Below the pieces are notes generated by a model, which had not been told where the DNA came from, did no database searches, and worked only from the letters and a program-made list of their open reading frames with translations. Positions 4,656-25,492 of a stretch of DNA of 33,660 bases are shown here, piece after piece (position 1 is the first letter of the stretch; each line of letters starts with the position of its first letter). The stretch is from Clostridiaceae bacterium. GTDB lineage: Bacteria; Bacillota; Clostridia; CAYPLH01; DUMO01. The stretch lies in contig DUMO01000069.1 of assembly GCA_012839865.1 (NCBI GenBank), positions 1 to 33,660 of the forward strand. The letters are read 5' to 3'. Position numbers and translations under genes: made by a program.

Positions 4656-4838
4656 CTCTCCCCCATAAGGTTGGCTCGTTACTCAACCGTGAATTTCCGG
4701 CAACCATTATTATGTTTATCCTGAAATTCTCAAAATTACTGTCAGCGGTTCATTGTCCAATGCATTTCATATATTCACCGGATTGAAAAACAATGATAAA
4801 TCTGCAAGTGTGAATGAAATGACAGGGGAAGCGTTTAA

Positions 4839-5504: not shown

Positions 5505-5592
5505 ACATATACCTCCCGGCAAAATTTTATAATTACGCATATTTTTAAGTCAGTTTTTTTGCATTTCAATCACAAACTCACAAGGTCTTTTC

Positions 5593-5898
5593 TCAATGGC
5601 TGTTTTTTTTAGCCCAAGATTGACTTTCTGTGAAAAAGTTTGAGCAAAGTATTTTTCTGCTTAAATTATCTATAACAAATACACCATTATAGACGATTAA
5701 GGGCATGGCTGCGTTTAATCCTTCTGTAACCTTTTCTGCGGTAACAATGGAACGAGCAGTGGCATATGTGAATTTCATTCCTTTTTCAACGAGAGAGTTG
5801 ATGACAGAGCAACTGTAGCCGGATATCCTCTGGTCACTTCTCAGCAAAGTTCCGTCAAGATCGGAAACATATAGTGTTTTACTTCTTTTATTACCCAT
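5593..5898 (-). pseudogene. Cof-type HAD phosphatase, N-terminal remnant
   Basis: The frame begins like a Cof/YidA-type HAD hydrolase. It has the nucleophile motif VSDLDGTLLRSD, then the motif II region KFTYATARS and the cap start PLIVYNGVFVID. It stops after 101 residues, whereas the family is about 260-290 residues. The break falls near a run of eight A on the coding strand (5602-5610), a likely slippage point. Shifting frame there gives only some 20 more codons before another stop, so most of the cap domain and motifs III and IV are gone. A promoter-proximal ATG is still present, but the product cannot form the HAD active site. Confidence 0.75.
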
Positions 5899-22250: not shown

Positions 22251-23402
22251 TTATTCAAGCTTTCCAAACATAATCCGTTCCTTGCGGCTTGCTGATGTAT
22301 CACCCTGGGTAACGGCAAGATATATTGTTCCCTTGTACTGCAAAAACTTTGGGTATTGAAATGACTTGACTGTTTCAAATCTGTATTTGCGTTCCCAATT
22401 AATACAGTCAGTTGAAATATCTATATTGAATATCGAACGGCGTATTCCGTCTAATCTTTCTGCATCCTGCCATCCAAGATAATAGATGCTGTTAAACTTG
22501 TCAAAGTTTGGCTTTGAATTATCACCATTGTAAACAGGATTACGATATTCATGGGCTGACCATTCCCTGCCGTTCTTGCTGCAAGAAAATGCATAATTCA
22601 AATTACCGTTTTCCTGTCTTGAAATTGCAAGCCAGCTTCCATCTGGCAGACGGTTAATTGAAGATTCGGTCAGTTTCATCTCATAAGGTTCGTTATAATG
22701 GCCTATTACTTCAAATGTATCTATATCTTCATTAAGAATAGCAAGTGCATTCTGCCCGATTTTAAAATTGTTCAAAACTGCATATACCTTATTATCAAAC
22801 TCTCTAAATGAGTCAACAATATACATACCGTAATCAAATTGTATTCCTTTAAAACCCTGTGATACAGCATCCATGTATAAATACCGGGGCTGCATATCAA
22901 ATGTTCCAAGGGATATTTTTAGTTTTGCTTTATAAATGTTATAAATAAAATCATTTTCATCCAAATCAAAATCAATATACCAGGTTTGAGACTCACGAAC
23001 CCCTGGATTTTCGCTTGCAAAGAAACAGCGAAGTGTTTTGTCATTTTTCTGTATAATGCGTGGAACAAAGCACGCACCTGCCGGTAATTTTGCATTCCTG
23101 AAATCCATCTCAGAGGATGCAAATCTAATGACCTTTTCGACAGCGTTAGTATTCAGATTCACAATTGACATAACACAATATATAAAAGGCCATGTGGGAT
23201 TTTCACCCGGTTGAATATCATTAGCCTCATACACTATATATGCCCTGTCATTAACTATTACAAAATCAGCATCATGGGCTCCCTTTACAGATGGTTCGCA
23301 AACATTGATCAATCCTTCCAATATATTTGCAGCTGCCTGTTTCGGATCCCAGCAAGCACTCAGCAAGTGTTTATTCGAAGACACCGGACTTGCAATATCC
23401 AT
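22251..23402 (-). CDS. beta-propeller protein, sialidase/BNR-like
   Basis: A 383-residue protein without signal peptide, composed of repeated beta-strand blocks. Two degenerate Asp-box-like turns (SKNGREW near 285 and STDCINW near 340) and the phrases SSINRLPDGSWLAISRQ and NFDKFNSIYYLGWQD fit the BNR/sialidase-like or GH32/43-like propeller folds. The catalytic Arg triad of true sialidases cannot be confirmed. Given its place after an oligosaccharide ABC transporter, it may process an imported sugar in the cytoplasm. GGAGGTG precedes the ATG. It is the last gene of the unit, separated from the solute-binding gene by a 36-base palindrome. Exact activity is unassigned. Confidence 0.6.
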   Translation of the reverse strand: MDIASPVSSNKHLLSACWDPKQAAANILEGLINVCEPSVKGAHDADFVIVNDRAYIVYEANDIQPGENPTWPFIYCVMSIVNLNTNAVEKVIRFASSEMDFRNAKLPAGACFVPRIIQKNDKTLRCFFASENPGVRESQTWYIDFDLDENDFIYNIYKAKLKISLGTFDMQPRYLYMDAVSQGFKGIQFDYGMYIVDSFREFDNKVYAVLNNFKIGQNALAILNEDIDTFEVIGHYNEPYEMKLTESSINRLPDGSWLAISRQENGNLNYAFSCSKNGREWSAHEYRNPVYNGDNSKPNFDKFNSIYYLGWQDAERLDGIRRSIFNIDISTDCINWERKYRFETVKSFQYPKFLQYKGTIYLAVTQGDTSASRKERIMFGKLE

Positions 23403-23598: not shown

Positions 23599-25275
23599 TT
23601 AGTTGCTATTCCAGCGTTCATAAGCATCTGTATAAACTTTTATCAATTTATCCAGTCCACGATCTTTACACCCTTTTACAAAATTATCAAACTCATTTAT
23701 TGATACCTCACCTGTAATGAATTTGGCTGTCATTTGACTGATATAGGATTTCACATCTGTTTCAGCTACTGATATTTCGTCTAATTCTTCAACAGTAAGC
23801 ATTACATCCGGATAAGCAGTTTTGTAATAAGGGAGATAATTATTACGTACATGTTCAGAATATTTTGCCTGCCCTGGGTCTACGACCTCCATATACTGGG
23901 TAGAAGGATACGGTGGGTCAAAATTTACAAAGGGCAGCACCATCGGAGTAATAGTCAAATTGCGGAAATCATTGAAATTTTTATAACCTTCTGGTATTAT
24001 AAGTTCAACGGCTTTTTCGCCATTATCTAACTGGGTCCATTGCCAGCCGCCTTCGCCGCCTTCCCATTTTCCATTTTCAACTCCGGCTCTCATGGTAAGA
24101 GTTCCTTCCTGGGTATACACCCAGTTCATAAAAGCTACAAGTGCCTCGGGCTTTTTACATTTTGAAGTGATAACCAATGCATTATTTAGTTTACCATCAT
24201 TTGATGGCCAAATTTGTTTGTCGTTCACTTCACTGGTAAGAGGTGGTATTGCATCAAACTGTTTATGTATCTCCGGATCTGTAATAAACGTATAGAAAAC
24301 TTCACTGAAAGCACCATACAGGTTCATGGCACCTTTTGCCTTGTATTGGTCATCCGATTGCGAAAAACACTCCTTATCAATCAATCCTTCACTGTAAAGT
24401 TTATTTAAGTATGCTAAGAAAGACTTGTACCTTATATCAGTTGCACCATAAAAAACATTGCCGTTATCATCAACGTTCTGATATGCGCCAAGCAAGCCAA
24501 ACGGTTGAAGCAGCGCTTTGAATGTTTTATCGTTCACCGCAAACTTCCATGCCTGCGGGATCTCATCATTTTCTCCGTTCCCATTGAGATCATTATTCTT
24601 TATGCCAAGCAGGAACTGATAAAAATCATCTGTCGTCTTTGGTATATCCATATTTAATTTATTGAGCCAGTTCATGTTAATATAACGATGTGTCTCTGTT
24701 CTTCCACGAAAGGTAACTTCTGCTCCAAAAATACCATACATTTTCCCATCGGGAGTTAACATCATTTTTTTGATATTGGGATATTCATTGATCATGGTGA
24801 TAATGTTAGGTGCATATTTTTCTACCATGTCTCCTACATCAATTATAAGTCCCTGACTGCCATAAGTTAGCAGATCAGTTTTAGTTATACCGGTTAAGAA
24901 GCAATCAGGAATATCTCCTGTCGCAAATGCCAAATTCTTCTTTTCGTCCCAGGCTTCTTTATTAACATTAGTAATTTCAAACTTAATATTAAATCTTCTT
25001 TCTATTTCTTTGAAAATCCAGAGGCTATTCCATTCTCCTTCACTTGGTTTTCGTGGTGCCAATACTGTATAAACAGTTTTTTCCTTTAAAATAGGATAGC
25101 CTTCAGCATTCATATAATCAGGAAACCCATTGGGATTCGTATTATCCGTAGCATTGGTTGCAGCTGTTGTTTGTGTGCCGGAAGTTACGTCAGCAGTCTT
25201 GTTCAGCTGACATCCTGATAAAATAGTTGCAATGATTAAAACAGCAACCATAATACTAATATCCAATAAAAACAT
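23599..25275 (-). CDS. extracellular solute-binding lipoprotein of a carbohydrate ABC transporter (LplA/YtcQ type)
   Basis: About 558 residues from the first ATG, or 550 from 25251. The lipobox LSGC lies at residue 22 (first ATG). After a Thr/Asn-rich linker comes the family-1 binding fold typical of LplA/YtcQ: YTVLAPRKPSEGEWNSLW, EIERRFNIKFEITNV, FATGDIPDCFLTG, FLLGIKNNDLNGNGENDEIP and EALVAFMNWVYTQEG. It should capture an oligosaccharide outside the membrane. The 5' end is abnormal: the ATG at 25275 lies inside the truncated permease gene, no proper ribosome binding site is present, and the signal peptide lacks its positive N-region. Expression may rely on coupling to the permease remnant's stop at 25256. 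The mature protein looks intact. Confidence 0.85.
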   Translation of the reverse strand: MFLLDISIMVAVLIIATILSGCQLNKTADVTSGTQTTAATNATDNTNPNGFPDYMNAEGYPILKEKTVYTVLAPRKPSEGEWNSLWIFKEIERRFNIKFEITNVNKEAWDEKKNLAFATGDIPDCFLTGITKTDLLTYGSQGLIIDVGDMVEKYAPNIITMINEYPNIKKMMLTPDGKMYGIFGAEVTFRGRTETHRYINMNWLNKLNMDIPKTTDDFYQFLLGIKNNDLNGNGENDEIPQAWKFAVNDKTFKALLQPFGLLGAYQNVDDNGNVFYGATDIRYKSFLAYLNKLYSEGLIDKECFSQSDDQYKAKGAMNLYGAFSEVFYTFITDPEIHKQFDAIPPLTSEVNDKQIWPSNDGKLNNALVITSKCKKPEALVAFMNWVYTQEGTLTMRAGVENGKWEGGEGGWQWTQLDNGEKAVELIIPEGYKNFNDFRNLTITPMVLPFVNFDPPYPSTQYMEVVDPGQAKYSEHVRNNYLPYYKTAYPDVMLTVEELDEISVAETDVKSYISQMTAKFITGEVSINEFDNFVKGCKDRGLDKLIKVYTDAYERWNSN

Positions 25276-25492
25276 ATGGATAACTCAAAATGGATTTGTA
25301 CCCGTTAATATTAAAGCCTTTAGGAATAAACAATACTTGTCCCATACTGACTGCATCCGGGTCGCTGAAAGACGCAATAATAACAAACCAGATTGGGTAA
25401 AAAGCAATGATTAATACTACGAATAATAAAGAGTAATTAACAACATTAAAAATTCTGTCTGAAAAAGCTTCTTTAACTGTATGTCTATCCAT
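25256..25492 (-). pseudogene. carbohydrate ABC permease 2 (LplC/YtcP type), truncated
   Basis: The 78 residues are a faithful N-terminus of the second permease in this transporter type: FSDRIFNVVNYSLLFVVLII, then FYPIWFVIIASFSDPDAV and FIPKGFNINGYKSILSYPYV. Normal proteins have about 290-300 residues. The frame ends at TAG 25256-25258, exactly where the solute-binding gene begins, so the missing 220 residues, including the EAA loop that contacts the ATPase, were removed by a deletion that also took the original start of the next gene. The start ATG at 25492 follows a GGAGG (about 25502). Without this subunit the heterodimeric channel cannot form unless another copy exists. Confidence 0.88.

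Follow-up and report, generated by a model that had tools for sequence, protein, structure and literature searches.

The closest described counterpart of the locus studied here is YtcQP-YteP of Bacillus subtilis, an importer of rhamnogalacturonan/polygalacturonan whose components are a solute-binding protein (SBP) plus a pair of permeases and which is presumably powered by MsmX (PMC5730181). Our locus, which lies in a window of 33,660 nucleotides (the whole stretch of DNA that was analysed), contains genes for the same kinds of subunits with an AraC-type regulator nearby, and its order, yteP-ytcP-SBP, is that of many Paenibacillus and clostridial relatives. In contrast to the B. subtilis system, however, ytcP is cut to 78 codons here, and the SBP gene appears to be without its native start.

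Short deletions in redundant bacterial transporter operons form pseudogenes. The locus resembles such cases in that the flanking genes are open, one segment is missing, and several members of the family are hit in one genome, and nothing about it is distinctive. We consider it likely that an in-place deletion of ~0.7 kb inactivated this YteP-YtcP-YtcQ-type importer, leaving an early-stage pseudogene among several decaying copies.

Gene layout and the truncated ytcP gene

On the minus strand, yteP is followed by a spacer of 32 nt, the ytcP stub, and the SBP ORF, the last two of which share 20 nt in different frames (Table 1). The BPD_transp_1 domain of YteP is complete, as expected of a MalF-like subunit. 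The protein encoded downstream of the SBP gene had no match in Pfam or NCBIfam and no credible match in PDB; that it forms part of the importer operon is a guess.

Table 1. Features of the importer locus (positions in the window).
Feature	Position	Strand	Basis
Membrane AraC-type regulator, upstream, intact, 773 aa	26742..29063	-	PF12833, PF17853
YteP-type (MalF-like) permease gene, intact, 323 aa	25525..26496	-	PF00528 positions 2-183 of 184; 57-59% identity to best relatives
YtcP-type (MalG-like) permease 5' stub, 78 codons + TAG belonging to the junction	25256..25492	-	Aligns to first ~78 residues of ~295-aa relatives
Approximate junction of the putative deletion: GGATAT (permease) / ATTAGTATTATGG (SBP leader)	25253..25262	-	End of permease homology and expected start of the leader hydrophobic core
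Solute-binding lipoprotein ORF, 558 aa, apparently without native start and charged n-region; lipobox LSGC	23599..25275	-	PF01547/PF13416; relatives; solved relatives
383-aa protein, downstream	22251..23402	-	Profile and structure comparison

As a comparison set, 80 loci from other bacteria were collected via YteP. None of these was related below the rank of class, and the genome collection contained no close intact relative from the same order, family, or genus (best matches 59% identical). In nearly all of the 80 loci, the gene after yteP encodes a YtcP of ~295 aa; the YtcPs of relatives measure about 293-309 aa. Among the matches listed for seven relative genomes, nearly all YtcPs were full length, and 1 of the 60 C-terminal YtcP matches in three relative genomes was a tail remnant.

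The ytcP stub, as read directly from its ORF, begins at a start codon with a good Shine-Dalgarno sequence (CCGGAGGATGCAGTTATG) and runs for 78 codons, the next codon being TAG. Its 78 amino acids align with the N-terminal part of full-length YtcP-type permeases found in ~80 relative loci, with E-values down to 2e-19 and an identity of 49% at best, in agreement with the preliminary description, which had recognized a family N-terminus of this length. The homology breaks off exactly after the first two residues, GY, of the conserved motif GY-x-N(T/S); relatives continue with x-N-T/S. The alignment, made with distant relatives, places the approximate junction at this GY. The SBP ORF overlaps the stub, and the proposal that the permease stops where the SBP gene begins holds as well. 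Compared with the ~295 codons of a MalG-like subunit with a complete core, only 78 are present, and ~215-222 are missing, close to the 220 or so residues first estimated. The stub was not recognized by Pfam (no PF00528 match); the transport domain would be expected farther downstream.

The preliminary description spoke of a fusion of the permease gene to the SBP gene. The 2 genes are indeed joined, but their frames disagree, and they are therefore joined without forming a fusion protein.

The solute-binding protein gene and its leader

Over nearly its whole length, the body of the SBP can be aligned with full-length YtcQ-type SBPs; it also aligns with SBPs of solved structure, such as 5g5y, and resembles AlgQ-type proteins. 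While this body and the lipobox are present, the leader contains neither Lys nor Arg. In the 45 relatives with a recognizable YtcP-SBP pair, the last Lys or Arg of the leader lies a median of 18 residues ahead of the lipobox Cys (n = 45). Here, the hydrophobic part of the leader starts at about -16 from the Cys, where the permease sequence is joined; immediately ahead of it stands an Asp whose position corresponds to the permease-derived GGATAT. This anatomy of the leader suggests that the native start of the SBP gene was lost, as had been proposed from the first reading. Since the leader carries no Lys or Arg, export of the SBP is predicted to be poor.

With its frame still open, the SBP would have to start at a fortuitous ATG at 25275, situated in old permease sequence, or by reinitiation at an ATG 4 nt past the new stop; neither of the resulting leaders contains a Lys or Arg. 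An SBP produced in either way, by reinitiation after the 78-aa ORF or from 25275, could in principle serve another permease pair, which would make the locus a stable functional rearrangement. The SBP ORF is open over 558 codons, and a start at the ATG at 25275 gives back a leader with 21 residues ahead of the Cys (relatives: median 22). Elsewhere in the genome there are about ten related permease pairs, and another SBP, on contig C25, is not accompanied by permeases of its own. An open frame is also expected after a recent loss, however, and the leader has an Asp but no Lys or Arg, the Shine-Dalgarno sequence ahead of 25275 is at most a weak GAG, and decay is seen in other SBPs of this genome. 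We therefore regard such a rearrangement as very improbable.

A deletion reading accounts for the locus as follows. The lost stretch would begin at ytcP codon 78 and end a short way into the part of the SBP gene that encodes the signal peptide, so that codon 78 now meets the leader at its first hydrophobic residues. Reckoned from distant relatives, in which the gap between YtcP and SBP has a median of 41 bp (n = 45), its size amounts to 654 + ~41 + ~20 = ~0.7 kb. The truncated permease would keep its N-terminal part only, without the coupling domain. As a transporter of this kind needs both permease subunits, the importer is very probably inactive. The locus looks like a redundant sugar importer undergoing ordinary decay, with a loss that may be relatively recent. 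It belongs in annotation as a broken importer, rather than as a 78-aa protein and a normal binding protein, and has little significance beyond this.

Deletion or assembly artefact

A segment found in relatives is absent from the locus, while homology to these relatives (at up to 59% identity) reaches both sides of the junction, a pattern that points to loss of the missing stretch by deletion. The same pattern could arise if a chimeric join or a mixed-strain assembly had removed the middle of the operon, in which case the organism would have a complete ytcP and SBP gene. The assembly is a draft in 89 contigs, its contamination is put at 3.73%, and the same gene family contains many broken joins. 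In addition, contigs C65 (L146, end 8059) and C85 (L135, end 14566) both end inside a ytcP gene, which shows that genes of this family were difficult to assemble in this genome.

Several observations nonetheless argue against an artefact. Gene order is kept at the locus, and a TAG that follows directly in frame restricts the extent of any repeat shared by the junction and an intact permease. The sequence across the junction occurs only once in the genome, and the identity among YtcP paralogues does not exceed ~37% over this stretch. Sampled ORF lengths and coding density are near normal. The missing ytcP segment was not found on another contig, nor did any fragment elsewhere in the assembly cover the rest of this permease. 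On balance, an artefact appears unlikely, and a real deletion was judged to be several times as likely. The description of the event as a clean in-place deletion is thus supported by the distant relatives and by the absence of the segment elsewhere, with a small but real chance left for an artefact or a mixture of strains.

Recombination between paralogues was considered as a cause and rejected on the basis of their low identity and the lack of a 17-nt match of the junction region in the other stretches of the genome that were sampled. A repeat scan of the locus revealed nothing notable around the junction, and the junction did not occur in viral contigs. The ytcP fragment on C85 was likewise rejected as the missing piece, since it is the end of a different ytcP gene, which has an SBP gene beside it. 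This fragment probably continues contig C65; the 2 contigs probably adjoin each other, the gap between them falling within the ytcP gene.

Other broken importer genes in the genome

The genome of 2.74 Mb contains about a dozen related operons. The event does not stand alone; several further members of the importer family are broken as well. On contig C20 (L138:1891-3885), YtcP residues 1 to ~274 are present and the last ~26 are missing, and the gene is fused in frame to EutB, of which profile positions 72-434 are present and 1-71 are missing. No other EutB is encoded in the genome, and the gene that follows is EutC-like, as named from reading its translation. Two isolated C-terminal tails of YtcP were found: one of 34 aa between unrelated genes (C54:15816-15917; L136 around 2817-2918), and one of 21 aa between a gene named fucI-like from its translation and an intact SBP gene (C25:6773-6835; L137 around 4774-4836). 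SBPs are affected as well. Those on C1 and C53 are without N-termini (L142:1703-2776 and L151:876-2276, which lack roughly the first 220 and 116 residues, respectively), the one on C23 (L141:3776-5347) is interrupted by an in-frame TGA, and the one on C85 (L135:2660-4257) is frameshifted.

In a sample of ~230 kb of the genome, coding density was 86%, compared with 90% in the one relative used for comparison, and ORF lengths were similar. As coding density in the sample is near normal, general damage to the genome was rejected as an explanation. Rather, the pattern looks like piecemeal loss of redundant importers, and the cluster of broken YteP-YtcP-SBP operons offers a small example of a shrinking redundant transporter family, or else a warning about the assembly. 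A more specific scenario, in which a recurrent deletion process in the lineage keeps removing ytcP-type parts, leaves 5' or 3' stubs, and generates novel junctions (an in-frame one of YtcP with EutB and one of YtcP with SBP) that in some cases the cell may express and use, seems very improbable to us.

Elsewhere in the window, on the minus strand, the gene for a HAD-type hydrolase (5593-5898) is also truncated. It encodes 101 aa that cover only positions 2-81 of the 255 of Pfam Hydrolase_3 and stands directly before an O-methyltransferase-like gene that starts at 5540.
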